A DNA stretch of 64,000 nucleotides from a virus: positions 45,167-109,166 of IMG/VR virus record IMGVR_UViG_3300045996_003734; one strand, written 5' to 3'. The stretch's first letter is position 1, and every line of letters starts with the position of its first letter. Below, piece by piece: positions 7,258 through 33,943 of the stretch. The notes below the pieces were generated by a model, which did no database searches, was not told where the DNA came from, and saw only the letters and a list, made by a program, of their open reading frames with translations. A program made the translations under genes and the position numbers.

Positions 7258-8388
7258 TCAGGTGCTGAGCACGTCCTTGATGAGGCCGCCGGCGATGTTC
7301 GTCCCGAAGAACGTGGTCTCGCCGAAGCCGGCTTCGAACATGGTGCCGCCGTTGATGCCGCGGCCCTGCGGGATGTACTCGTTCGTCACGACGCCGGTGC
7401 CGCTGCGGCCCTTGGCGCGGAACGTCCAGCTGGTGGCGGTGCGCTTGCCGTCGCGCGGTAGACCCGGCGCCGGGTTCGACACCAGGACGACGTCGTCGCC
7501 GAGGATGTACTGCAGCGCGCCGCCAGCCGCCGGGATACGGCGGGCCGGGCAGATGTGAATGGTCGGCATGCCGACGATGTTGAGCTGCTGGTACCCCTGC
7601 ACGTCCGCAGCCTGGGCGATCTCCGGCTTGGGGCCGGCGGTGCCCATCGTGGTGTTGATGTACGCGCGCACGTTGTTGTCGGACAGGAACCAGTACGCGA
7701 CGTCGGGGTTCATGCCGATGTCGGTGATGGGCTGCGCCGACGCGAGGATGCGGGCGTGGATGTCCGCGCGAGGGTCCTTGGTCGAGCCGTTGTCCCACTT
7801 GAAGTTCGTGGTCAGCGACGTGCGGTTGTTGGCGTTCCAGTTGTTGAGGGTCGTGAGCGCACCGAACACGCGGATCTCGCGCGACAGGTACAGCTTGTTC
7901 ATGACCATCTCGCCGCTGGCCGCGCGCACGTCGTAGGCGTCGACCGCCTCGTTCTGCGCGCCCCACGGGATGAACGTCGCCAGACCGTGCTCGAAGGTCT
8001 GGTACTGCGTGGTCGCGCTGGCGTGCGCGATCTCGTTGATGGCGCCTTGCCGGCCCACCTCAGTGGGCACGTACTCGAACATGTTCTCGAGCGCGAAGTC
8101 GCGGCGGTTGCCCTTCTCCTTGTCGACCAGCACCACCGGGGAAAACAGGTCCGCGCAGTAGGCGAAGGGGCTGTAGCCGCCGAGGTAGGTGTCGAGCTCG
8201 CGCGCCTGGTCCCCGACCTCTGCCGGCGTCACGGCCATGAGCACGCGGGTGCCGGCCGCGCCGACGCCATCCACGTTTTCGGTCAAGGTGAAGAAGCGAT
8301 GGCCAGGAGGCGCACCGTTCTGATTCGAGAGAGTGTCGATGGCGAGCGGAAGCCCGTTGAAACTGGGCTGTCGGAGGGCTGCGTTCAT
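7258..8388 (-). CDS. Major capsid protein
   Basis: 376 residues, located after protease/scaffold and decoration genes, in capsid position. An HK97-fold reading fits: N-terminal arm, spine helix region (GRQGAINEIAHASATTQYQ), P-domain strands (VGMPTIHICPARRIPA) and late A-domain strands (ATSWTFRAKGRSGTGVVTNEY). Low lysine, soluble, no membrane segment. The 48 bases upstream (8389-8436) contain no gene, leaving room for a strong ribosome site as expected for the most abundant virion protein. Confidence 0.8.
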   Translation of the reverse strand: MNAALRQPSFNGLPLAIDTLSNQNGAPPGHRFFTLTENVDGVGAAGTRVLMAVTPAEVGDQARELDTYLGGYSPFAYCADLFSPVVLVDKEKGNRRDFALENMFEYVPTEVGRQGAINEIAHASATTQYQTFEHGLATFIPWGAQNEAVDAYDVRAASGEMVMNKLYLSREIRVFGALTTLNNWNANNRTSLTTNFKWDNGSTKDPRADIHARILASAQPITDIGMNPDVAYWFLSDNNVRAYINTTMGTAGPKPEIAQAADVQGYQQLNIVGMPTIHICPARRIPAAGGALQYILGDDVVLVSNPAPGLPRDGKRTATSWTFRAKGRSGTGVVTNEYIPQGRGINGGTMFEAGFGETTFFGTNIAGGLIKDVLST

Positions 8389-8881: not shown

Positions 8882-9634
8882 TCAGAGCGCCAGCTGGCCC
8901 GTGCGGATGAAGCCGCTCGCGGCGCGGACCTGCGTCTGCAGCGGCAGGTCCTTGAAGCCGGGCGTCTTGTCCTTGTGAAACGCCGCGCACTTCTCGATTT
9001 CGTTGCGACCGGGGTAGGCCGCGAACAGCTGAACGTGCGCAGGCGGCGCGCCCGGGGCCCCGACGGCAGGAGCCGACGCCGGCGCGGGAGCGGCGGGCAC
9101 CACGACGCCGTTGAGCAGCTGGACGCCGTTCTGTCCGGCGACGAGGCTCTGCGAGAGCAGCGCCTTCGCTGCGTCGGGCCTCGGCAGGGGGTACTGCGCG
9201 TAGAACGCCGCGAGCTTGGTCTCCCGCTCCTTGGGGTCGTCCACGTTGCAGGCGAGTCGCGAGGTGAGGAGCAGCGGCTTGAACTTCGCCGCGGTGTCGC
9301 CGCTCAGGCCCATCGATGCGGCGATCTGCTCGACCTCCACCTCGGCCTCTTTCTTGTCCGCCGCGCCCAAGCGGTCGCGAGCGGCAGTCAAGCCGGCTAG
9401 GTACTCGTCGGCCTTCTTGGCCTTCTCGATGGTCTTGGCCGCGTCGCCGAGCAGCGCGGTCATGTCGTCAGACTCGAAGAGCCCGAGCAGCTGATCGAGC
9501 GTGTCGCCCTTGACCTTGGCCTTCTCGGCGGCAGCGAGCAGCACCGGCTCGGAGTCGCGGCAGTTGAACAGGTCGGCAAGCTTGCCGAGCAGGGCGGTCG
9601 CGAGAGCGGGAGCAGGGGCAGCGGGTGCGGTCAT
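8882..9634 (-). CDS. Nested in-frame scaffold protein (internal start of protease gene)
   Basis: The ATG at 9634 is in frame inside the protease gene and opens a 250-residue product, MTAPAAPAPALATALLGKLADL onward, covering the helical scaffold half. A GAGGA box sits 7 nt upstream, a better ribosome site than at most starts here. This mirrors Mu Z and lambda Nu3, scaffolds made from an internal start so that scaffold outnumbers protease. Inferred from the Shine-Dalgarno match and family precedent. Confidence 0.55.
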   Translation of the reverse strand: MTAPAAPAPALATALLGKLADLFNCRDSEPVLLAAAEKAKVKGDTLDQLLGLFESDDMTALLGDAAKTIEKAKKADEYLAGLTAARDRLGAADKKEAEVEVEQIAASMGLSGDTAAKFKPLLLTSRLACNVDDPKERETKLAAFYAQYPLPRPDAAKALLSQSLVAGQNGVQLLNGVVVPAAPAPASAPAVGAPGAPPAHVQLFAAYPGRNEIEKCAAFHKDKTPGFKDLPLQTQVRAASGFIRTGQLAL

Positions 9635-10510
9635 GGTGTTGTCCTCGGGGGCCGTTGGCGGCGAAGTGCTCGGGTCTGCAACGCCCATGACGAGCTGACC
9701 CGCCGTCGTGAGAATTTCGTCCGAGCTCGCGAGCACGCGCAGACCGAGCAGGCGGCGCACCGAGTCCACGAGGTAGCCAAAGCCATCGGGGAACGCGGCC
9801 GACGTCATGCCGTTCGCGACCGCGTTGCGCAGCGTCTCGATCTCTACGGCGACCTCCGCCGCGGCGGCGTCTCCCGGCAAGCCGAGCAGATCGCGCAGGC
9901 CCACGAGCGCCTCCTCAGCGCTGTCGGCCTTGCCGTAAACGCTCACGCTGGCGGCGATCGGCGCCATGCCCTTGATGAAAGGGTGATTGGTGAAGGCGAT
10001 GCTGGTGAGCAGCGCGCCGATCGGCTTGCCCGTTGCCGCGTCCTTCGCGCTCGGCCACACGGCTACGCTGGTCGACAGGTAGCCGCCCGCGCGAATCTGC
10101 TCTCGCGCCTGGTCGCTGAGCAGCGTGAGCGCCCACAGCTCGGCGCCGTTCTCGCCCTCGCGCAGCTGCAGCTCCGTCGCCCACGCCGGAGCCGGAGCGC
10201 CCGTGGAAGGCAGCGTACCCTCGGTCGGCGCCATCTCGCTCGCGTGTTCGTAGTCGTACGGCACAACGCGCTGCGTGCCGACGCCGTCGGGCCCCGGGCT
10301 GTACCAGGGGTTCGCGTGGAAGTTCGCGATGATTTGTTCGAACGACTTCCGCGTGAATTCGACGACGCGGCCGCTCGGGTGGCCCTCCCACTTGCCCTCG
10401 CGGGCGACCTGGATCCAGACGGCGCCGTCGTTCGCGACCTGCTCCGCGCTGAGCTTTACGGGTACGCCGAAGGCGCGGAGATGGAGCTTGGTGTCATTCT
10501 TGCGAGCCAC
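8882..10510 (-). CDS. Capsid maturation protease fused to scaffold (Mu I-like)
   Basis: 542 residues. The first ~200 match the Mu gpI protease family: WIQVAREGKWEGHP near residue 30, then DYEHASEMAP near 85, a catalytic-type His in the family, and LLTSIAFTNHPFIKGMAP near 170, the conserved end of the protease domain. Next is an acidic helical linker (~200-290), then an Ala-rich helical scaffold part from residue ~293 with long coiled coils. In Mu the protease and its in-frame scaffold product organise the procapsid and are then removed. The scaffold also has its own start at 9634. Confidence 0.75.
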   Translation of the reverse strand: MARKNDTKLHLRAFGVPVKLSAEQVANDGAVWIQVAREGKWEGHPSGRVVEFTRKSFEQIIANFHANPWYSPGPDGVGTQRVVPYDYEHASEMAPTEGTLPSTGAPAPAWATELQLREGENGAELWALTLLSDQAREQIRAGGYLSTSVAVWPSAKDAATGKPIGALLTSIAFTNHPFIKGMAPIAASVSVYGKADSAEEALVGLRDLLGLPGDAAAAEVAVEIETLRNAVANGMTSAAFPDGFGYLVDSVRRLLGLRVLASSDEILTTAGQLVMGVADPSTSPPTAPEDNTMTAPAAPAPALATALLGKLADLFNCRDSEPVLLAAAEKAKVKGDTLDQLLGLFESDDMTALLGDAAKTIEKAKKADEYLAGLTAARDRLGAADKKEAEVEVEQIAASMGLSGDTAAKFKPLLLTSRLACNVDDPKERETKLAAFYAQYPLPRPDAAKALLSQSLVAGQNGVQLLNGVVVPAAPAPASAPAVGAPGAPPAHVQLFAAYPGRNEIEKCAAFHKDKTPGFKDLPLQTQVRAASGFIRTGQLAL

Positions 10511-10545: not shown

Positions 10546-10860
10546 CTAGCCGCCGACGAGCTCGTCGGGCTGCCCCGCGCGGCGCCGCACGAGCTTGCCG
10601 TCCACGATGGTGACGACCTCGTCGCGGTCTTCACGCGTCAGCGCGTCGTCCACCGCGGCGTCGTTCTCCTTGCCGGCCTTCGTGCGGATGAGCTCGTTCG
10701 CGCGAGCCATCACCTCGGTGGGCTTGGCGACCAGGCGGAAGAACAGGCGCACGCCGTCGGGCGTGAGGCCTCCGGTGCGCTGGTACTCGGCGAGCTGCCG
10801 CGCAGCGGCCTCCACGTCATCGCGTGGAGGCGCGCCCTTCGGGAGCAGCGGGGCCGTCAT
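10546..10860 (-). CDS. Small hypothetical head-region protein
   Basis: 104 residues, starting ATG at 10860 across the stop of the minor head protein (ATGA-type overlap). Helical and charged throughout, with RLFFRLVAKPTEVMARANEL in the middle and VVTIVDGKLVRRRAG near the end. No Cys and no membrane segment. I do not recognise it. The position between MuF-like protein and protease suggests a head-assembly accessory role or none that is essential. Confidence 0.65.
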   Translation of the reverse strand: MTAPLLPKGAPPRDDVEAAARQLAEYQRTGGLTPDGVRLFFRLVAKPTEVMARANELIRTKAGKENDAAVDDALTREDRDEVVTIVDGKLVRRRAGQPDELVGG

Positions 10861-13616
10861 CCGGCCCCCAGCATTCGCGCCTGAACCTTTGCCAACTCCT
10901 TAAGCATTTCTTCCTTCTGCTCGGCCGTCAAGCCGAGCTCCCGCACCCACTCCGACACACCCTCCGCCCCGCTACCGCTCGAGCGAAGAAGCGCCGCTCT
11001 TTCGTGCGCTTTCGCCATCAGCTCCAGCGCCTCCTCCGAGCCGATGCCCTTCAGCTTTTGGAGCCGGTACCGGATGGCGTTGATCTCTCCGGAGTACGCC
11101 ATGCCCGCGTCCGAGAGCTTCAGCTTCGGTACCAGCTGGCGCATCACGCGGCGCGCCGTGAGCTCGGTCCCGATCTCCTCGACCACCACGCTGTGCGGGG
11201 TGACGTCGTGGAGGTTGCTGCCCGAGAGGCTGTGCACCTCCTCGTGCACCATGATGCGCAGGCCGTCGAGCTCCTTCCGGATCTCGGGCGTGAGCGTCTT
11301 GATGGGTCCGGAAGAGATGCGCTGCATCGCGCGCCGCGCGCGGTCGACGACGTCGGGCGAGTAGGTGACCTTGGCCGTGCCTGGCTCGAACATCGCCTCG
11401 AAGCCGTGCACCGCCACGTCCTCGCCCGAGACGGTCATGTCGCCGAGCACCGCGTCGCGCGCCTGCGGCACCGTCTCCCGCACCAGGTCGCGGAGCGCAA
11501 GGCGCGCCTCGGCGCCGTTGGCGAGCTGCCCGCTTGCCGTCCGCTCGAGCGCGGCGTTGAAGCGTCCGGGCAGCGCCGCGCGGCGCTCGGCCGTTGCGGC
11601 CTGCTGCATCGCAGCGCGCGCAGCCTCGAGCTTGCGCTGCGCCTCGGCCTCCGCGGCGGCCTTCGCGAAGTGGTCGGCAACCCGGTCCCGCTTCGCCGCG
11701 CTCTTCTTGAAGTACGCCTTGATTTCCTCGTACTTCGGATCCCCCGGGGCGACGTCGGCAGACATCGGGATGAGCCCGCCGTCCCCGTTCCCTCGCGCTC
11801 GCAGGAAGGCCTTGCCGACCTGCTCGCCGTCCACCTCGAGCATCGCCAGGTCGCGCACCCGAGGCAGCGCGTCCACCGCCTCGGCGGGGATGTGCGGGAA
11901 CGCCTTTTTGAACTGGCCCTTGAGGTTCTTGAGCTGGGTTGGGTTCGTGTCGAAGCCAGCGCGCGCCCAGACGTATTGGCCGTCCCACGCGGCCTCGAGC
12001 TTGATCTTTTTGACGCCCAGCTTCTCGTACTGCTCGAGCTGGTTGACGAGGATCCGGCTGCCGATGCCCGAGCCTTGGTGCTCCTTCGCCACCCGCAGGT
12101 AGCCGTGGTGCACCACCATGTCGCCGTTCTTCTCGAGCTTGTAGTCGCGCTGAACGGTGGCGACGTACTTCCCCTCACGGTCGACGATGCGCGCCTTGAG
12201 GTCGATGGCGTTGGACGTCGCGCTGATGCGGAAGTCGTCTAGCCGGTGCCCGTCGTCGAACGTCGCGGGCGAAACGAGGGCTTGGTACTCCTCGGGTGAG
12301 AGCGCCCGGCCAAAGCCCTTCTGGCTGACCGCGTGCAGGTGCTTCAGCTCGCTCGCCTCGAGCTCGATGGCGGCCGCCGTGAATTGGGCGTGGGTCGCTG
12401 GCGCAGCGGCGACCGGCAGCGGCACTGGAGGCAGCCGGATGGGCGGCGCCGGCGGCGCTGTGGACGGCGTGGGCAGCTCGATTGCGGGCGGCGGCACGGG
12501 GCGCGGGGGCGGAGCACGCACCGGCACAGGCGGGCGCTGCGGTGCCGGCGGCGGGGCGAGCGCGGCGGCCGGCACGCTGATGAGCTGGCTGGTGCCGGAC
12601 TCGAAGCCGGGGTCCGGCAAGCCTTTGGGGACCGGGCCCACCTCGATGCCCATGCGCTTGAGCCACGCCAGCGTGCGCGCGATGACGCGGCAGCGGCAGT
12701 TGAAGCCGAAAGGCGGGTAGGCCAGCTTCCAGAACGGGTGATTCGCCGGGAGCACGATGCCGTGCGCGCGCTTGTGCGTCTCGCGCTGGCGCGCGTCGGT
12801 GACGCCTCGGATCTGCCAGTACGGCAGCGCGGCCAGCACGGCGGGTTGGCTCATCTCGGCGCGCCGCCCGCTCGCCACGGCGCTCATGCTGTTCGTGCGG
12901 AAGATGGTCTCGACGTGGCTCGGGTTGTCTGGCGTCCAGCCCGCCGTCTTCAGGCGCTCCTTGGCGAACTTGCGGAAGTCTCGGAGGTTGGCGCCCTTCG
13001 GTGTGCTGCCGGGGGTGCCGGGCCGCCTGCCCTGCCCGTCGCGCAGCTGGCGGACGAGCTCGGCCTTGGTGGCGTTGAGCAGCTCCTCCTTGGCCATGCC
13101 GGCGACGGTGAAGGCCTGCTTCCGCGCACCCTCCTGCATCGCGCGAAACGCCGCCGGCGGCACGACCTTGCGCTGCTCGAACTGCGCGATCGCGGTCTCG
13201 CCCGGGAGGTGCACCAGGCCCGGCCGGCGCCGCACCGCGAACGTTGCCGGCGCCAGCTCCACGTCGTGCTCGCGCTCCCACTGCGAGTCGAGCGCACCGA
13301 GCATCAAGCCCCGCAGAATGGTCTGCTCTATCTCCTTCGCGAACGCGCCCACGTCGATGCGCGCGCGCTCGAGCGCGCTTCGAATTTCGAACTCCGTTTC
13401 GCTGTCGCCGATAGCCTCGAGGACGGCCTCTCCCCAGGCGGCCGTGATCCGAGTTGCCGCAGCCACGCCGTCTTCGACGAGCGCCTCCGGAGAACCGTTC
13501 GGGCTGTCGGGTTGCTCGGCGCAGCAGACGTGCTCGCCCAGCAAGTCCTGAGCGTTGAGCGAGGCGTAGAACCGCTCGAGCTCGAGGAGCTCCGCGCGCG
13601 CCTGCTCCGCGTTCAT
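10857..13616 (-). CDS. Minor head protein (MuF/SPP1 gp7-like) fused to GNAT-like and HExxH metallopeptidase-like domains
   Basis: 919 residues, two to three times the size of a plain MuF protein. Residues ~1-330 are the MuF/SPP1-gp7 head protein: YWQIRGVTDARQRETHKRAHG, then HPFW and PPFGFNCRCRV (Cys near 306). A Pro-rich linker of ~55 residues follows (APPPAPQRPPVPVRAPPPRP). Residues ~440-570 look like a GNAT acetyltransferase, with HQGSGIGSR at ~513-521 as acetyl-CoA loop and an upstream GDMVVHHGYLRV strand. After an Ala/Glu-rich coiled coil, residues 791-795 are HEEVH, an HExxH zinc-protease motif, followed by EEIGTELTARRV that could give the third ligand. MuF proteins enter the capsid, so the added domains may be delivered to the host at infection. 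Confidence 0.8.
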   Translation of the reverse strand: MNAEQARAELLELERFYASLNAQDLLGEHVCCAEQPDSPNGSPEALVEDGVAAATRITAAWGEAVLEAIGDSETEFEIRSALERARIDVGAFAKEIEQTILRGLMLGALDSQWEREHDVELAPATFAVRRRPGLVHLPGETAIAQFEQRKVVPPAAFRAMQEGARKQAFTVAGMAKEELLNATKAELVRQLRDGQGRRPGTPGSTPKGANLRDFRKFAKERLKTAGWTPDNPSHVETIFRTNSMSAVASGRRAEMSQPAVLAALPYWQIRGVTDARQRETHKRAHGIVLPANHPFWKLAYPPFGFNCRCRVIARTLAWLKRMGIEVGPVPKGLPDPGFESGTSQLISVPAAALAPPPAPQRPPVPVRAPPPRPVPPPAIELPTPSTAPPAPPIRLPPVPLPVAAAPATHAQFTAAAIELEASELKHLHAVSQKGFGRALSPEEYQALVSPATFDDGHRLDDFRISATSNAIDLKARIVDREGKYVATVQRDYKLEKNGDMVVHHGYLRVAKEHQGSGIGSRILVNQLEQYEKLGVKKIKLEAAWDGQYVWARAGFDTNPTQLKNLKGQFKKAFPHIPAEAVDALPRVRDLAMLEVDGEQVGKAFLRARGNGDGGLIPMSADVAPGDPKYEEIKAYFKKSAAKRDRVADHFAKAAAEAEAQRKLEAARAAMQQAATAERRAALPGRFNAALERTASGQLANGAEARLALRDLVRETVPQARDAVLGDMTVSGEDVAVHGFEAMFEPGTAKVTYSPDVVDRARRAMQRISSGPIKTLTPEIRKELDGLRIMVHEEVHSLSGSNLHDVTPHSVVVEEIGTELTARRVMRQLVPKLKLSDAGMAYSGEINAIRYRLQKLKGIGSEEALELMAKAHERAALLRSSGSGAEGVSEWVRELGLTAEQKEEMLKELAKVQARMLGAG

Positions 13617-15217
13617 CGCCCGCCGATGGTCGTGAGCAGCTTCAGCACGTGCGCGGCGCGAACGAGCTGCAGGGGGTCCCGGTCGGTGAACGTGTCTTGG
13701 TCAGGCAGGCCTTGGCCGTCATCGCCAAGGGGCGACGCGCCGCCGGCCCCGCTCTGCTGTCCGAATCCACCACCACCGCCGCCGCCGCCGGGCGACCCGA
13801 AGCCGCCCGCGGGCTGCGGCGCCTGCTGCACCACCAGGTCCTCGGGTTGCGGCTCGGCAAAGCCCACGCGCTCGTACACCTCCGAACGCTTGAGCGGGAT
13901 GCCCAGGCCGAACACCTTCGCGGTGCGCTCGATCTCCTGCCCACGCGTCGGCGTCACTTCGTACTTGAGCTCGATGCGGGGCGCGTGATCGAGCGCCTCC
14001 GCGCCGAAGTTCAGGACGATGATGTCCGCGCCGAGCTGCTCGGTGAGCAGGTCGGAGATGTCCCAGCCGTCCGCCGCGTACACGCTAGACTGCTCGTCCT
14101 GCCCGACCTCGTCGCCGGCGGAGCCGAGCGCGCCCGGCTTAGCGTCGTTCGTGCGCGTGGTCCCGGAGACCAGCTTGCTGATCTCGTCGTTGCATTCCGC
14201 CGCGACTTCCTTGTGGATGGTGCCGGAGTTGTGGTCGGGAGTCTCGAGCTGCAGCTTGACGCCGGGCGGCATCACGCCGGTGGCGTTCGCTCCGAGCGCG
14301 TCGGCGGAGATGGCCGCCTCGTCCAGCGTCTCCTGCTGGATCTGACCGTCCTCAGCCCAGACGATGCGCCAAGGCTTGCCGAACACCTCCAGCAGAATCA
14401 GGCGTTCTCGCCACGAGAAGCGCTTGAAGAAGCTGAAGTACATGCCGCGCGGACCGAAGCCCTCGCGCTCTGGGTAGTCGTTGAACTGCTGCGGCGTGAA
14501 GCTGATGAACTTGAACGGGATCTGCCGCAGCTCGAGCCCGCGCCGCTCGAAGGCGCCACCGGCGAAGCTGTCGTCACGCACGCGCAGCTCGCGCTCGGGG
14601 CCGAAGCTCAGCCGCCGCGGATGAATCCAGTTCAGGCTGTCGATGCGCCACTTGACCGTGCTGCCGGCGGGGTTCTCGCGCCAGACCTTCTCGAGCGCGG
14701 CGCGCCCGTGGCACTGCGCCCAGTTGAGCCTGCGCACCTGCTGGCGCCAATTTGGGATCCAGGCGAGCTGCTGGCGGACGACGTCGGCGTAGAGCTTGGC
14801 CTTGCTTGGGTCGATGCCGTCGCCGGAGGCCGCGATCACGTTGGGCTTGATGCTGGCGAGGGCTCGCACCCGCTTGCCCACCGCCGACGTGAAGTGCGGG
14901 TCGATGGCCAGCGTCTCGTACTGGAGGTCGGTGAGGTCCCGCATGTAACCGAGCTCCGCCGAGCGGACGGCTTGCTCGATGAACTCGGGGGTGAGGGAGC
15001 GGCCGTAGTACCGGCGGTTTTGCTCGGTGAGGGGGAGCTCCCCGCCGAACATCGATTCCTGCAGGTTTTGCCGGGCGACGAACTGATTGCCCGCAGCGTC
15101 GAAGCGGAGGCGGATGCCCTGGCGGGCAGCGCGCTCGATGGCGGCGATGCGCTGGCGTTCCTCGAGCGGGGCTCGCTGGAGGATACCCTGCCGGGTGTGC
15201 AACGGCGCCAGCTTCAC
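13613..15217 (-). CDS. Portal protein (Mu gp29-like, DUF935)
   Basis: 534 residues from a GTG at 15217 that overlaps the previous stop (GTGA). The sequence reads as a DUF935 portal: LTPEFIEQAVRSAELGYMRD, LQYETLAIDPHFTSAVGKRV near 110, RFSWRERLILLEVFGKPWRI near 270 and LNFGAEALDHAPRIELKYEV near 420. A Gly-rich low-complexity run (GGGGGGGGFGQ) lies in the C-terminal ~90 residues. It forms the dodecameric DNA entry ring. The stop overlaps the minor head protein start, as in Mu, where gp29 and gp30 are adjacent. Confidence 0.85.
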   Translation of the reverse strand: MKLAPLHTRQGILQRAPLEERQRIAAIERAARQGIRLRFDAAGNQFVARQNLQESMFGGELPLTEQNRRYYGRSLTPEFIEQAVRSAELGYMRDLTDLQYETLAIDPHFTSAVGKRVRALASIKPNVIAASGDGIDPSKAKLYADVVRQQLAWIPNWRQQVRRLNWAQCHGRAALEKVWRENPAGSTVKWRIDSLNWIHPRRLSFGPERELRVRDDSFAGGAFERRGLELRQIPFKFISFTPQQFNDYPEREGFGPRGMYFSFFKRFSWRERLILLEVFGKPWRIVWAEDGQIQQETLDEAAISADALGANATGVMPPGVKLQLETPDHNSGTIHKEVAAECNDEISKLVSGTTRTNDAKPGALGSAGDEVGQDEQSSVYAADGWDISDLLTEQLGADIIVLNFGAEALDHAPRIELKYEVTPTRGQEIERTAKVFGLGIPLKRSEVYERVGFAEPQPEDLVVQQAPQPAGGFGSPGGGGGGGGFGQQSGAGGASPLGDDGQGLPDQDTFTDRDPLQLVRAAHVLKLLTTIGGR

Positions 15218-15555
15218 GAGCCGCGCCTCCACCACCGACGCGCAGGCGCCGGCGGCGGCGCGGCCTGCGCCGCTCGCGCCGCCTGCTCGTACTGCGCTCG
15301 CGCCCCGAGCTCCGCCGTGCGCAGCTGCGCGAGCTCGCTCTCGACCTGGGCCGCAAGCACCTCGATGCGTGAACACCACCGCTCAGTCAGCGCCCAAAGG
15401 AAGGCCGAGCGAACGGCGCCCAGCGGGCCGCCTGCCTTCGCTTCCGCCGCCCGCCACGTCGCTGCAGTCCGGCGCAGCTCGCCCACGAGGCGCTCGGCAA
15501 GCTCTCGCCTACCGGTTGCCAAGCCAAGGGAATGAGCCAGCTGGGTCGCGTCCAC
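15214..15555 (-). CDS. Hypothetical helical protein before portal
   Basis: 113 residues, almost wholly helical and Ala/Arg/Glu-rich, with a run near residues 60-95 (RIEVLAAQVESELAQLRTAEL) that could form a coiled coil, and a basic, Trp-rich end (PARRWWRRGS). It is translationally coupled to the portal. No known domain. It could be a capsid internal or assembly factor. Confidence 0.6.
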   Translation of the reverse strand: MDATQLAHSLGLATGRRELAERLVGELRRTAATWRAAEAKAGGPLGAVRSAFLWALTERWCSRIEVLAAQVESELAQLRTAELGARAQYEQAARAAQAAPPPAPARRWWRRGS

Positions 15556-15593: not shown

Positions 15594-18104
15594 TCAGGAG
15601 TCTTCCACGGTCGGGTCGCGCTCGAGCTCGGTCACCCGGACGGTGAGATGGGCGTCGGCGCCGAGCGTGTTTGTGACGCTGAGGCGCAGGTTGTTGCCGC
15701 TAATCGAGGCGTTAACGGTCAGGTTCACGGAGTCGCCCGAGGTGAACAAGCTGGACTGCACGGGCGTGCTCGCGGCGCCGCTTCCGGAGCGCTGGGTCTC
15801 AACGTGCACGATCTTCGTGCCTCGGTCGCCGGACGCATCCTCGGCCAGGACCTTCACGCGGAAGAGGTAGCGGGTGGACGGCAGGAGCGGCACGTCGATG
15901 TTGGCCGTGGTGCCGGCGCTCGCCACGTCCACGCTCGACAGCGAGCCGACCAAGCCGCCGATTCCGTCGTTCTCGATGGCCGCGGCTCCGATCTTGGTGT
16001 TCGTGCCGCCGTCGCTGAACGGCGAGCCGTTCCCCGAGATTCGCGTCTCCGCGATGCGCGTGCCGTCAGCGGAGCCTTCGATCTCGATGCCGTTCTGGGT
16101 GTTGCCGGTGACGACGCTGCCGCCGCCGATGAAGGCTCGGTCTCCGCGGATCTGGATGCCGTCGTCGGTGTTGTCGCGTGCCGTGACGCCGAGGAGGGAG
16201 GCGTCGTCGGCGCCGGCCGCAATGAGGAAGCCGTCGGCGTTGCCGTAGCTCGTGGTGCCGACGACCTTGTTTCGCAGCCCGTTCAGGATGACGCCGCGCG
16301 AGCAAGCGGTGAGCGAGCCACCTTGCACGACCGCGTCCGGCGCGTTCAGGTCGATGCCGCTCGAGAGGCCCGCGGACCCCGTCCCTGTCGCGTCGAAGCC
16401 CTTTACCTCGCAGAACACGGCCGTCGGCTCAGTGGTCAGCCCGGCCACGGCGCAGGCCTCCGCCGTGCAGTCGGTGACCTTCGTGCGGGGCCCGCGGATG
16501 CGGAAGCCGGAGCCCACCGCGGTGAAGGCGTTGCAGTCCGTCAGCCGCGTGAGGTCCGCCTCGCTGTCGACCAGGAAGGCCTCGTCGCCGGTGTCCTCGA
16601 CGTCGACCCCGATCACCTTGTTGCGCTTACCGTAGACGGTCACGCCGAGGAGCATGTCCTTCACGTAGCCGCCCTCGACCGTGACGTGGTCGGCCGCGAT
16701 GTAGACGCCTAGCGAGGTGGCGCCGTCGTTGCCGCGGCAGTTGAAGTTGCTGAGGTGCGCCCTGTGCCCGCCGAAGCCGACGCCGGGGTCGCCCATCACA
16801 CCCTCGCGGAAGCGGATGTAGTGCCCGTCGGGCGGCCCGTCGCTGGTCCAGACGTTCGTCACTTCGCACGGTCCCCGGATGTCCAAGCCGGCTTGCTCGG
16901 TCAGCGTCGTGTCGAGGCCCCAATGGCGCAGGTCGAGGTGCGCCAGGGACATCGAGCCGTTGCCGTTGCCGACGTTTTTCATGTCGATGCAGTCGGCGCC
17001 GGTGTGGTGGATGTACAGGTGGGAGAGGTCCACGCGCTTCTTGTCGCCGCCCTGCAGCCCCAGGCCGTAGCCGTAGCAGTTCTTGATCTCGACGCGGTGG
17101 ATGCGCAGACCGTCGCAGCCGCCCGTCCCCGTACGGAGACCGTGGACGGACGAGGTGTTGCCCGAGCCCGGGTTCACGAGCTGGCTGTTGCCGTCGAGAG
17201 TGAGGTCGCTGATCTCGATCTCGGTCGCGCCGTCGATGTTGAACAGGTTGGCGTTCGCGCCGTTCGCCGCGCGGATGATGGTCTTTCCCCGCCCTGCTCC
17301 GCGAAGCGTGACGTTGGCCAACCCGGTTAGCGAGAGGCACACGTCATCGATCGCGGACTCGTTCACCAGGTACGCGGCGCCGAGCCCGTCGGGCACGTAG
17401 ACCAGGCCCGCTCCAGCGGTGTTTGCGGCCGCGAGCGCCGCCTGAAGGGCCACGCGGTTGGCCGCCGCGAGCGCCGCCGGCGACGCTCCGTACGTGCCGA
17501 GCTTCACGTTGAAGTAGGCGAATAGGTCGCGCACCGCGATGCCGCCGTCCTTCAGCTCCTTGCCGTTGGCGCTCTGGAAGACCGGCACGCGGTCGACCAC
17601 GGCCGAGGCCGGCCCGAGCACGTCACCACCGCCCGGAGGCACCACGTCCACGTCGTCGTTCTGGTTGTCAGCCCAGCCGCCCGCCGAGTACTGCGTGCCC
17701 TCGGTGGCGATAATCTTGCGGCGGCCGAGCGCGCTCCGAACGCACACCAGGCGCTCGAACACGAAGTCCGCGCTCGGTCGGTCGTTCCGGTCGAGGCCTC
17801 CGTTCACGAGGCAGCGCACCACCCAGGAGGCCGCACCGGTGGCGGGAACGTTGAGCGAGACCGCCGTCGCCGGCGTCGCCGCGTCCACCTTCTGCCCCGT
17901 GCTCGAGCCGACCAGCGTGAGCAGCGCGGCCCCCTTGCTGGCCCTCGGCGACTTGTCGTCGCTGGCGCTGTACACCTCGTACGTCACCCGCCGCACTACG
18001 CCGGTGAGCGCCTCGAGCTGGAGCACGAGCGACGCGCCGCTCACCGTGTCGTAGCCACGCGCCGAGCTCGGGCTACCTTGGATGGTGAAACGGGCGAGGT
18101 TCAC
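15594..18104 (-). CDS. Tailspike / right-handed beta-helix protein (pectate-lyase-like)
   Basis: About 836 residues from a GTG at 18104; the true start is uncertain because the frame stays open into the terminase gene and no strong ribosome site is seen. The centre (residues ~230-690) is a right-handed beta-helix: repeated rungs with N/D-G turns such as GLANVTLRGAGRGKTIIRAA, IEISDLTLDGNSQLV, DLSHLYIHHTGADCIDMK. A strand-rich C-terminal domain follows. Such spikes bind and often cleave surface polysaccharide. It is placed between terminase and portal, far from the other fibre genes at 44-53 kb. Confidence 0.75.
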   Translation of the reverse strand: MNLARFTIQGSPSSARGYDTVSGASLVLQLEALTGVVRRVTYEVYSASDDKSPRASKGAALLTLVGSSTGQKVDAATPATAVSLNVPATGAASWVVRCLVNGGLDRNDRPSADFVFERLVCVRSALGRRKIIATEGTQYSAGGWADNQNDDVDVVPPGGGDVLGPASAVVDRVPVFQSANGKELKDGGIAVRDLFAYFNVKLGTYGASPAALAAANRVALQAALAAANTAGAGLVYVPDGLGAAYLVNESAIDDVCLSLTGLANVTLRGAGRGKTIIRAANGANANLFNIDGATEIEISDLTLDGNSQLVNPGSGNTSSVHGLRTGTGGCDGLRIHRVEIKNCYGYGLGLQGGDKKRVDLSHLYIHHTGADCIDMKNVGNGNGSMSLAHLDLRHWGLDTTLTEQAGLDIRGPCEVTNVWTSDGPPDGHYIRFREGVMGDPGVGFGGHRAHLSNFNCRGNDGATSLGVYIAADHVTVEGGYVKDMLLGVTVYGKRNKVIGVDVEDTGDEAFLVDSEADLTRLTDCNAFTAVGSGFRIRGPRTKVTDCTAEACAVAGLTTEPTAVFCEVKGFDATGTGSAGLSSGIDLNAPDAVVQGGSLTACSRGVILNGLRNKVVGTTSYGNADGFLIAAGADDASLLGVTARDNTDDGIQIRGDRAFIGGGSVVTGNTQNGIEIEGSADGTRIAETRISGNGSPFSDGGTNTKIGAAAIENDGIGGLVGSLSSVDVASAGTTANIDVPLLPSTRYLFRVKVLAEDASGDRGTKIVHVETQRSGSGAASTPVQSSLFTSGDSVNLTVNASISGNNLRLSVTNTLGADAHLTVRVTELERDPTVEDS

Positions 18105-18142
18105 GGGCTCGGTATGCGAGCCGGGGGCCGCTCTGACCCTCG

Positions 18143-19690
18143 CTAGTAGCCGCCGGTCGCGACGCCCTTCCGCGCCCCCCGCGCCGGCACCTTGGGCTTG
18201 CTCGCCGGCTGCTTGTCCGCGAAGTCCCAGTTGTGCACGGTCGAGTCCACCTGGTCGTCCTCGGCGCCGTCCACGCCCGTAAACCGCTCGTGCTCCTTGA
18301 GGTACGGGCCGATCCACTTGCCCTCATCCCAGCACTCGAGTTCGCGTAGCAGTTTCTGCAACGCCACCGAGTCCAGGGTGGGGTCGTGGTCGAGCGGGAC
18401 CTGGAAGCGCCCTTGCCCCCAAGCGGCAGCGGCGGCTTGCGCGGCTGAGAACTTGTCGACGGTGCGCGGCACTTCCACGAGCCGGAGCTTCGGATTCAGG
18501 CGGCGGAGGTTCTGTGCGACGCTCTGCCCCTGCCCGCCCTGGGTCTCGATGACGATGGGCACGCCCGGCCAGCTCGCCTGCAGCACCGCCAGCACGCGCA
18601 CGACGTCCGGCGTCTCGAGCTGCATGCGGTAGCAGCGCAGCACCTGGCCGTAGAGCATGCCGGTCAGCACCACGCCCTCGGGGCTTTCCCAGGGCGCTCG
18701 CCAGTAGCAGCAGATGGTGATGGCTGTGTGGTCGGCGCTCGTCTTGGCGGTGCCGGCGGCGTCCACGGCGATGACGATTTGCCGGCCCTGCCGGATGGCC
18801 TGCCCCATGTAGCGGCGCGGCTCGCCGAAGACCGAGCCCCCCTTGGGCCGCGGCCGCTGCATGTACTGCGACCACCAGTTGTACTCCCCGACGACAGCGC
18901 GGATTTGAAGCAGCGCCTTCAGGTCGTAGCGCGCCTCCCAGAGCGGCTTGCCGTGCTCGTCGATGGCCGGCAGCGAGACGAACTCGAACGCCGGCATGTT
19001 CTCCGGGTCCTCCTCGCAGCGCTTCCGGATGCGCGCGAGCAGGTCGTCGTCGTTCCACCTCTGATGAAAGACGATGACGGATGCGCCCGGCTCGCGACGG
19101 GTGAACTGGTCGCCGATGAAGCTCTGCCAGACGGCTTCGCGCACCGTCTCGCTCTCGGCCTCCGCGCGGTTCTTAAAGGCGTCGTCGTTGAGCAGGAGGT
19201 CGAGGCCCTTGGAAACCAGGCCGCCGTCGCGCCCCACAGCGACGAACCCCCCGCCGCCCGCCGTCTGCCAGTGCCGCACGCTCGCGCTCGGGTCCCACTT
19301 CTTGCCGGGGCCGGAGCGCTGGAAGTCCACGCCCGCGTCGACCGCGCGCTGCCGCGCGATGCGGCTCTGGTCGTCCGCTACGTCCTGGCTGTAGGTCGAG
19401 TAGACGACGCGCTTGGAGGGCTTGTACTTGAGAAACCGCGCGGCCCCGTGGAAGACGATCTCGGACTTGCCGTGCCGCGGCGGCGCCTCCACCCCGGCGT
19501 AAACCTCCTCGCCCGCTTGGATGCGGTCGAAGAGGTCACACATGCGCGAGAGCGCGATGGGCGATGCGTAGCGCGGCGAAGCCCACGGGATGAACTCGAG
19601 CAGCTCCGTGCGGCCGCGAATCTCTTGGGTCCGGCGCCGCGCCAGCGCCCGCTGGTACGCCTCACTTTTTTGGTGCTGCTGGAGGTCCAA
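18143..19690 (-). CDS. terL: Terminase large subunit
   Basis: 515 residues. The ATPase part has a Walker A at residues 69-76 (APPRHGKS), the APxxxGKS form of myophage terminases, and HQRWNDDDLLARI downstream. The nuclease half opens with VIAVDAAGTAKTSADHTAI near residue 305, giving the first catalytic Asp of the RNase H-like fold, and has VIETQGGQGQSVAQNL near 380. It pumps DNA into the procapsid through the portal. The start overlaps the small subunit gene by 29 bases. Confidence 0.9.
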   Translation of the reverse strand: MDLQQHQKSEAYQRALARRRTQEIRGRTELLEFIPWASPRYASPIALSRMCDLFDRIQAGEEVYAGVEAPPRHGKSEIVFHGAARFLKYKPSKRVVYSTYSQDVADDQSRIARQRAVDAGVDFQRSGPGKKWDPSASVRHWQTAGGGGFVAVGRDGGLVSKGLDLLLNDDAFKNRAEAESETVREAVWQSFIGDQFTRREPGASVIVFHQRWNDDDLLARIRKRCEEDPENMPAFEFVSLPAIDEHGKPLWEARYDLKALLQIRAVVGEYNWWSQYMQRPRPKGGSVFGEPRRYMGQAIRQGRQIVIAVDAAGTAKTSADHTAITICCYWRAPWESPEGVVLTGMLYGQVLRCYRMQLETPDVVRVLAVLQASWPGVPIVIETQGGQGQSVAQNLRRLNPKLRLVEVPRTVDKFSAAQAAAAAWGQGRFQVPLDHDPTLDSVALQKLLRELECWDEGKWIGPYLKEHERFTGVDGAEDDQVDSTVHNWDFADKQPASKPKVPARGARKGVATGGY

Positions 19691-25067: not shown

Positions 25068-25281
25068 GGCCGCCCTCCCGCTCCAAGGCCTCGGCCACGT
25101 CCGCCATGGCCGCCAGGCGCTCGGCCCAGACGCGAGCGTTCGCCGGCGACAGGTCGAGCCCGGCGCCGTTGCTGAACTCGAGGATCACCTTGCCCGGCTC
25201 CGCCGACAGGTGGGCTGGCATTACGGACGGCCGAGCGGCCGCGCCTTGCCGATGGGCGGCCAGCTGAATGACCTTACCCAT
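25060..25281 (-). CDS. Small hypothetical protein
   Basis: 73 residues directly downstream of the integrase, overlapping it by 8 bases. KVILEFSNGAGLDLSPANARVW suggests a beta hairpin followed by a helix with WAERLAAMADVAEAL. The pattern, with SPANARVWAERL, resembles small phage proteins of unknown function in lysogeny regions. Confidence 0.55.
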   Translation of the reverse strand: MGKVIQLAAHRQGAAARPSVMPAHLSAEPGKVILEFSNGAGLDLSPANARVWAERLAAMADVAEALEREGGRG

Positions 25282-26815
25282 GGCGACGGGCCTCCTCCGC
25301 GATCTCCGCGACCGCCCCGTCCACGTCTCCGGCCAGGACCTTCTCGAGTGCGCGCGCTACCGCGAGGCCGGGCCGAAGTGGTAGGCTCGGGTCAACATCG
25401 GCCAACCGCTCCAGGCGGTGGACCCGGAGCAGGTTGTCGCGACGAGCCCCAAAAGGATCGTCTAACGAATCGTCTAGACCGCCCGCCGAGGCGACCGAGG
25501 GCCGACTCTCGCCCTCCGAATCAGCGCCAGAAACGGCATTTGGGGACCCTGCGCCGCCGGCGGGAGAATTCGAATCCCTCCCTCTCCGCAGCAGTTCCTC
25601 CGGTGAAACCGCAGATTCACCGGAGGCGTTAGACGATTCATAGACGAATCGCTGCAGGCTCTCCGGCAGAGGCGCGAACGGATCGCCGATGCTGGCGCCC
25701 AGCGCCTGGTGTCCGCGGCGGATGTAGATCTGCGTGGTCTTGAAGTCGGAGTGCCCAGCTCGCTCGCGAATCATGTTGTCCGTGTCTCCCCGCATGGCCA
25801 TGTAGGTGATGCCCGTTGCTCGCAGGTCGTGGAAGCGCAGCGCGCGCACACCCTTGCGGTTCTTCTTGTGGAGCGCCGGCCGGTCCACGCCGGCCGTAAG
25901 TAGGTCCTCACGGAGCACGTCGTACGGTCGCTCGACGATCTCGAACACCGACTCTCGACTGCGCCGCCGGTACATGGCCTCGAGCATGGGCCTTAGGAGC
26001 GGCTCGATGCTGAAGTGACGGGAGCGGCCTGTCTTCGTGTACTCGTGAAAGACTTGGGCCTTCGAGTCGAAGGACCGGTTCACGCGGACCATGCCGTGCG
26101 CTACGTCCACCCCGAGGCGCCAGAGCAGCGCGAGCACCTCACCCGGCCGGCAGCAGCAGTAGACGGCCACGGCGTAGAGGGCGCGCCGCTCTCGCGGCAC
26201 CTCCGGGCACGCTAGCAGCTTCTGGAGCTCGACCGGGAAGAGCCACTGCAGCTCCACCTCGCCCGGCGGGTCCGGCGGCACTACGCCCTCGGCAGGGTTT
26301 CGGGACAGCAGACGGAGCTCGCGCTTCTTGGAGTGCGCCAGGTCGCGGAACATCTTGGAGGCCACGGCCCAGCAGTTCTGGGCGGTCTTGGCGCTGAACG
26401 TGACCTCGCCGTCCTGGGCCTTCTCGTCCAACCACTGCACGAGGTCCCGGAGGTCGTCCGTCGTCACCTCGTCCACGTGCTTCTTGCCGATGATGGGGCT
26501 GATGTGGAGCCGGTACCGGTAGAGGTCCGAGCGCAGGGACTTCTTGCTCGAGCGCGACGGGATCCAGAGACGCTCGAAGTATTCGTCGCACGTCGGGCGC
26601 GTGCTGATAGGCGTCTTATCCTGCGGGGGCGACCAGACCTTGCCCTTAGCCGCCAGGCTCAGCTTGCGGGCAACCTCGCGCGCGTCGTCGTCCGACAACG
26701 CCGGATCGATCGGGATGTACGGCCGGACCGTCTTCCCCTCCGCGTTCTTGGCTGTGATGCGCGCGTACAGCGTGGTCGCGTTGACGCGCCAGATTGTGCC
26801 CTTGGTCTTGGTCAT
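25274..26815 (-). CDS. int: Tyrosine-type integrase with long C-terminal tail
   Basis: 513 residues. An N-terminal arm-binding region (~1-70), a SAM-like core-binding domain (~75-190, with YRYRLHISPIIGKKHVDEVT), then the catalytic domain: Arg near 223 in CRPGEVLALLW, HDLR near 328-331, a His in AGHSDFKTTQIY near 353 and the nucleophile Tyr364. About 149 residues follow the Tyr, Gly/Ser/Asp-rich then helical, far more than in most integrases. It would integrate and excise the phage genome. The adjacent 108-residue gene looks like its excisionase. Confidence 0.85.
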   Translation of the reverse strand: MTKTKGTIWRVNATTLYARITAKNAEGKTVRPYIPIDPALSDDDAREVARKLSLAAKGKVWSPPQDKTPISTRPTCDEYFERLWIPSRSSKKSLRSDLYRYRLHISPIIGKKHVDEVTTDDLRDLVQWLDEKAQDGEVTFSAKTAQNCWAVASKMFRDLAHSKKRELRLLSRNPAEGVVPPDPPGEVELQWLFPVELQKLLACPEVPRERRALYAVAVYCCCRPGEVLALLWRLGVDVAHGMVRVNRSFDSKAQVFHEYTKTGRSRHFSIEPLLRPMLEAMYRRRSRESVFEIVERPYDVLREDLLTAGVDRPALHKKNRKGVRALRFHDLRATGITYMAMRGDTDNMIRERAGHSDFKTTQIYIRRGHQALGASIGDPFAPLPESLQRFVYESSNASGESAVSPEELLRRGRDSNSPAGGAGSPNAVSGADSEGESRPSVASAGGLDDSLDDPFGARRDNLLRVHRLERLADVDPSLPLRPGLAVARALEKVLAGDVDGAVAEIAEEARRHG

Positions 26816-31676: not shown

Positions 31677-32801
31677 ATGCAATCGACTCTTTTGATTCCT
31701 GTGGGGCGCGCCAAGGGCGAGCCGATCGCTTCGTGCTCGCTCGAGAACCTGGACTGGACCATCAACTTCATCGCGAAGAAGCTGCGGGAAGAGCCGACCG
31801 GCAGGTTTGCAGCCGACAACCGGCGCTGGCTCGACGAGGCGCAGCGCGTCTTCGGCGAGCGCAGCGAGGGCGTGGTGGTCGAGGGCCCGACGGCTGGTGC
31901 CGCGCCGGCCGCCATAACGCAGCCGCGCCCGCACGCCCCCCTCGCTACGCAGCTGGTAAATGTGCCCGTCGGGGCCATTCGCGAGGCCGCGGCCGCCACC
32001 ACGGCACTGGTCAAGGCGCGCGAGCTTGGGCACCTCATCTCCCCCGCCCCGGCCGTGGGCAACCTCCCGGAAGGCTGCGCGATCAACGTCTCCGCCGTCG
32101 TCGTCGACATCGACCGCGAGACGTACGCGATGAGCGGCACGAGCGAGCGCGGGCTCAGCAAGGTGGCCCTCGACAAGATCGCCAGCGCGCTCGGCGTCGA
32201 CTGGGACCCGCAACTCTCGCAGCGGCTCGATGACGGCTCGCACCCGCACTACTGCCACTTCCAGGCCGTCGGCCGCGTGCGCAACTTCGACGGCACGTGG
32301 CGCACCATCCAGGCTCACAAGGAGCTCGACCTCCGCGACGGCTCCGCGCTTATCGAAGACATCCTGGCGCGGGAGGCGAAGAAGCAGCAGGAGCAGGGCA
32401 ACAGCTACAAGGGCGACGGCGGCAAGAAGGAGATCGCGGGCAAGCGTCTGCACATCCTGTCGCTGTGCGAGACCGAGGCTCGGCTCCGCGCGGTGCGCTC
32501 GATGGGCCTCCGCACCGGCTACACCCGGGAGGAGCTCGCCAAGCCGTTCGTGATCGCGCAGATCTCCTTTGACGGCTACAGCGAGGACCCGGAAGCGCGG
32601 GCGCAATTCCGCGAGGGCATCATGGCCAATTTCCTCGGCGGATCGCGGGCCCTCTACGGCAAGCCTCCCGTGAAGGAGCTGCAGCAGCACGCCCCGCCGC
32701 CCCCGCTTAGCGCGTACGGCGACGCGGGCGACGAAGACGACGGGCCGCCCAACTACGGCTTCAGCGAGCCCCGGCGCACAGGAACGGGAGGGCCGTACTG
32801 A
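31677..32801 (+). CDS. Putative single-strand annealing protein (Erf/Rad52-like)
   Basis: 374 residues upstream of an SbcD/SbcC pair. Residues ~5-45 resemble an IPxGKxKGxPL...L.W motif (LLIPVGRAKGEPIASCSLEN) found in some phage nucleases and recombinases. Residues ~145-300 carry the annealing-protein pattern: LSKVALDKIASALGVDWDPQ, KELDLRDG, then LSLCETEARLRAVRSMGLRT, like the ETxA..RALR helix of Erf/Rad52 proteins. The tail is disordered and acidic. With the nuclease pair it would form a phage recombination module. Motif-level call; a profile search would settle it. Confidence 0.45.
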   Translation: MQSTLLIPVGRAKGEPIASCSLENLDWTINFIAKKLREEPTGRFAADNRRWLDEAQRVFGERSEGVVVEGPTAGAAPAAITQPRPHAPLATQLVNVPVGAIREAAAATTALVKARELGHLISPAPAVGNLPEGCAINVSAVVVDIDRETYAMSGTSERGLSKVALDKIASALGVDWDPQLSQRLDDGSHPHYCHFQAVGRVRNFDGTWRTIQAHKELDLRDGSALIEDILAREAKKQQEQGNSYKGDGGKKEIAGKRLHILSLCETEARLRAVRSMGLRTGYTREELAKPFVIAQISFDGYSEDPEARAQFREGIMANFLGGSRALYGKPPVKELQQHAPPPPLSAYGDAGDEDDGPPNYGFSEPRRTGTGGPY

Positions 32802-33943
32802 TGCGCCTTCTCGCCTCCGGCGACAACCACTTCGCCGAGCACCTGCGCTTCGACGAGTGCATCAAGGTCCACGCCTCGATGGTCGAGCAGGCGCGCGACG
32901 TGAAAGCCGACGTCTTCTTGGACAGCGGCGACGTCTTCGACGCTGCGAGCACCCCGCGCGAGCGACAGGCCGTCGCTGAGTGGATCGTGGCGATGGCCGA
33001 GGTTTGCCCGGTCGTATTTGCGAAGGGCAACCACGACCGCCCCCTCGACGTCGCGCTCATGCGCCGCTTGTCGACGAAGCACCCGGTGATCGTCGAGGAG
33101 GGCGCCGCCGTCCACCACGTCGCCGGGGCTGCAATCGCGGTGATGGCGTGGCCCGAGCGCGCCCACCTGCTCGCGGCGCTGGGTAGCGCGGCGGCTGCGG
33201 ACCTCGGCATGCGAGAGGCGCTCCAGGGCGTGCTGCGCGGCCTCGGCCAGCAGCTCGAGCAGCACGACGGGCCGCGCGTCCTGCTCGGTCATTTCATGGT
33301 CGACGGCTCCGTCGCGAGCACCGGTCAGCCCTTGCTCGGAATGCCGATCAACGTGGGCCTGGCCGACCTGGCGCTGGCGCGCGCTCACCTGACGGTCATG
33401 GGCCACATCCACAAGGCCCAGAGCTGGGAGCTCGAGACGGGGCCCGCCATCTACACGGGCTCGCCTTTCCGGACGGACTTCGGCCAGCTCGAGCGCAAGA
33501 GCATCCTGTTCGCCGAGTTCGACGGGCAGCGACTGCTCCGCACGGAGGAGCTGGAGACGCCGTGCACGCCGATGGTGCACATGGACGGGTCGCTTGAGCG
33601 CGTCGCGGGCAGAGCGTTCTTCGCGGTAGGGCCCCACGCCGACGTGCGTGGCGCCGAGATCCGACTGCGATACAGCGTCGCGCCAGAGGATCGCGACACC
33701 GTCCGCCACCTTGCCGACGAGGCGAAGAGCGAGCTGATTGCTCGCGGCGCGCACAGCGTGAAGGTCGAAGAGGTCGTGATCGCAGAGCGCCGCGCGCGCG
33801 CTCCGGAGGTCGCGAAGGCGACGAGTGTGCAGGACAAGCTGGACGCGCACTGGCTCTCGCTCGGGTACGACCCGGGGGGGCAGCGCGGGGAGCTGCATGT
33901 GATGGCCGCGGAGTTGGAGCAGGAGGTGGCGAATGCGTCTTGA
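32801..33943 (+). CDS. SbcD/Mre11-like nuclease (T4 gp47-like)
   Basis: 380 residues with all calcineurin-type phosphoesterase motifs: GDNH at 7-10, GDVFD at 43-47, GNHD at 76-79, GHFM near 165 and GHIHK near 205, followed by the SPFRTDFGQLE capping segment. It is the manganese nuclease partner of the following ATPase, degrading or trimming DNA ends and hairpins. The start overlaps the upstream stop (TGATG) and its end overlaps the sbcC-like gene by 11 bases. Confidence 0.85.
   Translation: MRLLASGDNHFAEHLRFDECIKVHASMVEQARDVKADVFLDSGDVFDAASTPRERQAVAEWIVAMAEVCPVVFAKGNHDRPLDVALMRRLSTKHPVIVEEGAAVHHVAGAAIAVMAWPERAHLLAALGSAAAADLGMREALQGVLRGLGQQLEQHDGPRVLLGHFMVDGSVASTGQPLLGMPINVGLADLALARAHLTVMGHIHKAQSWELETGPAIYTGSPFRTDFGQLERKSILFAEFDGQRLLRTEELETPCTPMVHMDGSLERVAGRAFFAVGPHADVRGAEIRLRYSVAPEDRDTVRHLADEAKSELIARGAHSVKVEEVVIAERRARAPEVAKATSVQDKLDAHWLSLGYDPGGQRGELHVMAAELEQEVANAS

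Follow-up and report, generated by a model that had tools for sequence, protein, structure and literature searches.

A MuF minor head protein carrying GNAT and zincin-like domains, with a linked small gene, as a candidate toxin of a Mu-headed phage

The product of P0001, a gene in the head module of a Mu-headed phage, is probably a polymorphic toxin of the MuF type whose enzymatic cargo is twofold, a GNAT and a zincin-like metallopeptidase. We assign this reading a probability of about 60%. The gene lies in a window of 64,000 nucleotides (the whole stretch of DNA analysed) taken from a 109-kb IMG/VR virus record. The observed basis consists of the domain make-up of the protein, the gene order, the conservation of the families, cargo swaps in sibling proteins and the linkage between zincin genes and relatives of the neighbouring small gene P0002. 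A tyrosine integrase gene in the window (Table 1) indicates that the phage is probably temperate.

Table 1 Features of P0001 and its surroundings (positions in the window; residues are those of P0001)
Feature	Position	Strand	Basis
Integrase, tyrosine type	25274-26815		
Terminase	18143-19690		weak Pfam Terminase matches, one just under cutoff
Portal protein, Mu-type	13613..15379	-	Pfam Portal_Mu, E 2.1e-48; directly upstream of P0001
P0001, 919-aa MuF-GNAT-zincin protein	10857..13616	-	single ORF; PHROG 220 match
MuF minor-head region, residues 1-345 (Phage_Mu_F at 233-312)	12582..13616	-	Pfam; siblings L026-L031
Pro/Ala-rich linker, residues 346-411	12384..12581	-	23 Pro in residues 351-400
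GNAT-fold domain with C-terminal extension, residues about 426-625	11742..12341	-	AF2, PDB folds, relatives
QGSGIG, residues 514-519, predicted acetyl-CoA pyrophosphate-binding loop (motif A)	12060..12077	-	canonical QxxGxG
EAAWDGQYVWARAGF, residues 541-555, GNAT motif B	11952..11996	-	four-sequence alignment
Ala-rich helical linker, residues 626-690	11547..11741	-	long helix in AF2 model
Zincin-like domain, residues 691-919	10860..11546	-	21-sequence family A7; AF2
R705, invariant Arg in N-terminal helix of zincin domain	11502..11504	-	A7 alignment
HEEVH, residues 791-795, predicted Zn ligands and general base	11232..11246	-	end of predicted helix
EEIGTE, residues 813-818, predicted glutamate helix	11163..11180	-	invariant in A7
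P0002, 104-aa acidic protein, candidate immunity protein/inhibitor	10546..10860	-	relatives behind zincin ORFs
Mu-like I protein, head maturation protease/scaffold	8882..10510	-	Pfam Mu-like_Pro, E 5.6e-17
Major head protein	7258..8388	-	PHROG 1005, E 5.8e-21

The 919-residue frame reported by the initial annotation was recovered with exactly the same coordinates and without interruption. It starts with ATG, and the corresponding plus-strand frame is broken by stop codons. The sequence details named in that annotation were also found in place, namely HPFW at residues 293-296, GFNCRCRV at 304-311, a Pro-rich linker at about 346-411, QGSGIG, and HEEVH followed by E813, E814, T817 and E818. The protein matches PHROG 220, 'minor head protein and DNA pilot', with an E value of 7.6e-45. 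The head genes are arranged in the order terminase, beta-helix protein, portal, P0001, P0002, Mu-like I protease/scaffold, cement-like protein and major head protein.

A 98%-identical copy of P0001 is present on another metagenome contig (L002). Comparison of the two yielded dN/dS values of 0.037 for the MuF part, 0.061 for the GNAT and 0.071 for the zincin, which corresponds to strong purifying selection and indicates that all three parts are maintained. The Pro/Ala-rich linker has more substitutions than any other part and is the fastest-changing one. Matches of P0001 to TolA (NCBIfam) and to Nup49/57 (PDB) were rejected as composition artefacts of the Ala-rich coil.

Two other loci of the window were noted in passing. 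The long beta-helix or tail-spike-like protein (15594-18317, minus strand) is encoded in an unusual place, between the terminase and portal genes. At 32801-36362 on the plus strand, neighbouring genes for a 380-aa and an SMC/AAA-like 809-aa protein resemble, by eye, a nuclease pair of the SbcD/SbcC type; Pfam matches of the 809-aa gene are weak.

The assignment as a MuF head protein, made before from motifs, is borne out by a Phage_Mu_F match above the cutoff (E 1.2e-11, 45.8 bits compared to 29.6) and by the portal gene next door. Sibling proteins on other viral contigs (L026-L031) have MuF parts that are 51-56% identical to that of P0001 and differ in what follows. Two of them (L026, L027) carry an ADP-ribosyltransferase (ART) with Pfam matches above the cutoff, L030 carries only a GNAT and L029 carries no cargo. 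Exchange of the C-terminal cargo behind a MuF part that stays conserved, as in these siblings, is a hallmark of polymorphic toxins. When genome contigs were searched with a MuF profile, only distant Nostoc loci were found.

Among the same siblings, L026 and L028/L031 contain a kinase-like domain (YVKFY..., ...NWD...IDNG), recognised by eye only and without a Pfam match. In L032 and L033, which are portal-MuF fusion frames of 1402 aa, about 250 residues interrupt the MuF motif as GFNC|RCR. The insert has intein-like ends (CFLPGT... and ...NGIYTSN|C), with a weak Pfam Intein_splicing match below the cutoff (E 0.011).

The GNAT-like domain proposed earlier holds by fold and by the motifs of its relatives, although its Pfam match stays under the curated cutoff (Acetyltransf_7, E 3.7e-4, 21.3 bits compared to 27). 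Such a cutoff is a detection threshold and not a defining feature, so that, together with the fold result, divergent membership in the superfamily is possible. In an AF2 model of residues 412-919, pLDDT was about 80 across the GNAT part, which is moderate confidence. The best 50 PDB matches in the fold search were all GNATs with probabilities of 0.85-1.00, which supports a GNAT fold; the best E value was only 2e-3, because more than half of the query was of low confidence. GNAT relatives were found in the MuF proteins L030, L005/L014 and L015, which share QxxGxG-like loops and the block AAWDGQYVWxxxGF, and L065 is a further relative. In an alignment of four GNAT sequences, G517 and G519 of QGSGIG are kept, and W544, G546, Q547, Y548, V549, W550, G554 and F555 of motif B are invariant (4/4). 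A profile search of genome contigs with the GNAT alignment gave no match. Divergent versions of the block (AAWDGQYVWP) were also seen in ORFs of about 1.3-1.6 thousand aa on three other viral contigs (L008, L009, L010).

The general acid of GNATs is usually a Tyr four residues before the GF of motif B, which is common but not universal in the superfamily. In P0001 and in its relatives this position is occupied by Trp (W550), and Y548, two residues upstream, is conserved as well. GNAT activity is thus not assured. Compared to the superfamily, the domain shares the fold, the acetyl-CoA loop and a motif B ending in GF, and differs in this Trp, in a conserved C-terminal extension and in its Pfam score.

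The Trp is one reason to consider that the C-terminal domains serve as inactive structural ballast or as binding modules of the head protein; another is that the C-terminal domain of phage Mu's own MuF protein is described as catalytically inactive in PMC5512222. We regard this as very improbable, since residues of catalytic type (HEExH, EExxTE, QxxGxG) are kept and the domains are under purifying selection. In addition, the siblings swap their cargo wholesale, ARTs included, on MuF parts that are about 50% identical, which indicates that the cargo is not needed for head assembly.

For the zincin-like domain, 2.9 million viral contigs were searched with a DNA pattern encoding HEExH (x hydrophobic) followed by ExxTE. 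This yielded 27 stretches, 26 of which are in frame and form one family; about 20 of these are distinct, counting the near-copy L002. In the alignment of 21 sequences, referred to as family A7, the residues H, E, E and H of HEExH are invariant, as required by the search pattern, and R705, E813, A821 and R822, which lie outside the pattern, are invariant or nearly so. The common motif after HEExH is EExxTExxAR. The third zinc ligand is predicted to be E814, corresponding to HExxH-X18-E, or E813. The X18 spacing of the window's protein is found in more than half of the family, with relatives ranging from X16 to X22.

The motifs alone are weak evidence. In composition-matched shuffles of P0001, a GNAT-type glycine motif arose in 85%, HExxH in 4%, and the combination of HExxH and a suitably placed E..xE after it in 0.2%. 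Homology evidence places both the GNAT and the zincin domain well above chance.

Nearly all family members are located C-terminally in MuF or portal proteins. A Pfam scan of 19 zincin-bearing frames detected Phage_Mu_F in 16, with 5 of these matches under the cutoff (E 2e-6 to 4e-4), and a portal profile in one; neither profile matched the frames of L052 and L064. One protein, L065, originates from an unrelated head module and contains MuF, zincin and GNAT in that order, the reverse of the cargo order in the window (E 2.6e-24 for the GNAT profile, 1.1e-9 for the MuF Pfam family). The pairing of GNAT and zincin is therefore not a one-off fusion. A MuF protein on another contig (L074:1180-3855) has two zincin-like domains of family A7. 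The HExxH regions of the more distant MuF proteins L039, L044, L045 and L046 were set aside, as homology to A7 was not established.

With 20 homologues as alignment, AF2 modelled the zincin domain at a pLDDT of 90.3 and a pTM of 0.89, whereas an earlier run without this alignment gave no usable zincin model. In the predicted layout, a helix at the N-terminus is followed by three short strands and then by the two helices that bear HEExH and the glutamates, as given for the polyvalent MPTases in Iyer 2017 (PMC5512222). A Foldseek search with the model gave no confident match among PDB or viral structures, for which reason the domain is termed zincin-like and zinc binding is a prediction. The weak viral fold matches were IrrE, SprT and peptidase entries. 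The domain resembles gluzincins (HExxH-X18-E, such as M1) in the HEEVH-X18-E of the window and in its best plausible PDB fold, the zinc aminopeptidase 1z1w (probability 0.60, TM 0.49), but differs in the variable spacing within A7, in its minimal size and in that no sequence or fold match was significant.

In sequence searches, the zincin had no match in Pfam, only weak single-member matches in PHROGs and only helical chance matches among PDB sequences. Searching about 50,700 phage records by tblastn with three family members returned none, the zincin core gave chance matches only against phages and plasmids at E values up to 10, and a single-protein scan recovered only the 98% copy. A PHROG 29394 match over the zincin region (E 0.024) concerns a family without known function and was rejected, as was one weak tblastn match of the C-terminal region to Microbacterium phage Blett gp10, a different 106-aa protein matched by chance. 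The zinc-protease-like domain of the initial annotation is upheld by family A7 and the modelled layout, but not by any significant Pfam, PDB or Foldseek match.

Two main rivals compete with the toxin reading: the zincin may process its own chain, or the cargo may act against defences without killing. In the first, the zincin would cut the polypeptide, e.g. in the Pro- or Ala-rich linkers, at head maturation or after entry and free the MuF part from the GNAT, and P0002 would block early cleavage. The long flexible linkers flanking the GNAT agree with this, and Iyer 2017 (PMC5512222) suggests autoproteolysis for C-terminal MPTases of phage polyvalent proteins, e.g. P1 DdrB. We nevertheless consider it unlikely. 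Several family members, L063 (512-aa frame) and L076 (524 aa) among them, consist of MuF and zincin with nothing further to free, and the phage has another protease, the Mu-like I protein, whose gene is the second one downstream of P0001. Furthermore, the MuF-GNAT proteins L030, L005 and L015 lack a zincin, which indicates that release of the GNAT does not need one.

The initial annotation overlooked the small gene P0002, which is coupled to P0001 by an overlap of its start with the P0001 stop codon (ATGA). P0002 had no family match in the libraries scanned, Pfam and PHROGs among them, and PADLOC found nothing, a result that is uninformative as to a role in anti-defence. Directly behind most zincin genes elsewhere, small acidic ORFs of 59-104 aa were observed, mostly with a pI of 4-5.5; most relatives are shorter than P0002 and more acidic. 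Pairwise BLAST joins many of these ORFs and P0002 in one family, and a profile built without P0002 finds it with an E value of 2.3e-5. L065 has a P0002 relative of its own. Members adjacent to the zincin gene were detected by the small-partner profile in at least 10 of 20 zincin loci, 9 of 10 positive loci having also been used in building the profile; some of the remaining loci have adjacent small ORFs too divergent for the family. Across 256 kb of control sequence from 23 loci, none of the profile's matches was significant. Because of the reuse of loci, the weight falls on four points: the ORFs are adjacent, they are similar in pairwise comparison, P0002 is recovered, and the controls are empty. 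In L074, the profile also matches upstream of the zincin gene (417-1241, E 6e-9).

No P0002 relatives were found in sibling head modules without a zincin, including that of the GNAT-only L030. Presence linked to the zincin, together with empty controls, looks like the pattern expected of an immunity gene, and no other contextual evidence speaks as strongly as P0002 for a zincin that has to be neutralised. It is equally conceivable that a small linked protein of this kind acts as a chaperone or inhibits assembly. In the second rival, GNAT and zincin would be non-killing tools against defences of the host or of rival phages, and P0002 would serve as a cofactor of packaging or as a chaperone. Iyer 2017 (PMC5512222) proposes that polyvalent domains counter defences, and the GNAT-only siblings have no linked immunity-like gene, so the GNAT may be non-toxic to its producer. 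The small acidic gene is tied to the zincin across divergent head modules, which is a better fit to toxin and immunity protein, and we consider a purely anti-defensive role quite unlikely, slightly more so than autoprocessing.

As a two-cargo toxin, P0001 would act in several steps. By analogy to MuF/SPP1 gp7, the MuF part probably docks at the portal region, bringing one or a few copies into the head, and the C-terminal GNAT and metallopeptidase would enter the next cell along with the DNA. In the infected cell, the zincin would most likely cleave one or more cellular proteins, while the GNAT may use a protein or a small molecule as substrate for acylation, possibly one that serves in defence or housekeeping. 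Judging by linkage, small size and acidity, the most likely role of the co-transcribed P0002 is to bind the zincin and keep it neutralised, both in the producing cell and in the lysogen. The initial annotation suggested that the protein is injected as an effector and that it acetylates and cleaves targets in the host, which is plausible and in line with published MuF toxins.

Phage heads of very different kinds carry the protease family and its small partner, and a functional assignment could therefore extend to head-protein extensions without a named domain. Two enzymatic cargos were combined more than once, which suggests joint action. We tentatively propose, at somewhat less than even odds, that the zincin toxin and small acidic immunity proteins are uncatalogued families forming a mobile cassette on MuF and portal proteins of phage heads, and that their combination with a GNAT, in either order and in at least two unrelated phages, makes up a two-enzyme virion-delivered effector. 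For the question of what MuF-linked cargo does at infection, P0001 and P0002 offer a concrete two-gene system.

Among known systems, Bxa and Apk2 are MuF toxins in which the C-terminal enzyme is swapped and an immunity gene lies alongside (PMC11699363), and MuF toxin genes are followed by a small ORF in 89% and have metallopeptidase domains in 20% (PMC5576092). P0001 resembles these MuF polymorphic toxins (Jamet 2017; Bxa, Apk2) in its MuF N-terminus, swapped C-terminal enzymatic cargo, position among head genes, small downstream ORF, here linked to the cargo, and temperate phage. It differs in having two enzymatic cargo domains per chain, in that toxicity is inferred, and in that the zincin and small-protein families of the window match no catalogued family. 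Polyvalent proteins (Iyer 2017, PMC5512222) are likewise multi-domain, with MuF as a hub domain, and GNAT and zincin-like cargo were predicted for them in 2017. The available part of that paper describes two polyvalent GNAT families, one usually beside an ART, and MuF-GNAT-zincin is not among the arrangements described there; the A7 zincin may or may not be one of its 12 MPTase clades. The initial annotation considered the domain combination new. This applies to the GNAT-zincin pairing, whose recurrence appears new, as do the zincin and small partner families, but not to MuF-cargo fusions (Iyer 2017; Jamet 2017) or to phage GNATs and zincins as such, which had been described before. Taken together, P0001 and P0002 probably pair an injected toxin with its immunity protein; the general type is known, but the families of the protease and of the candidate antidote lie outside the catalogues searched.
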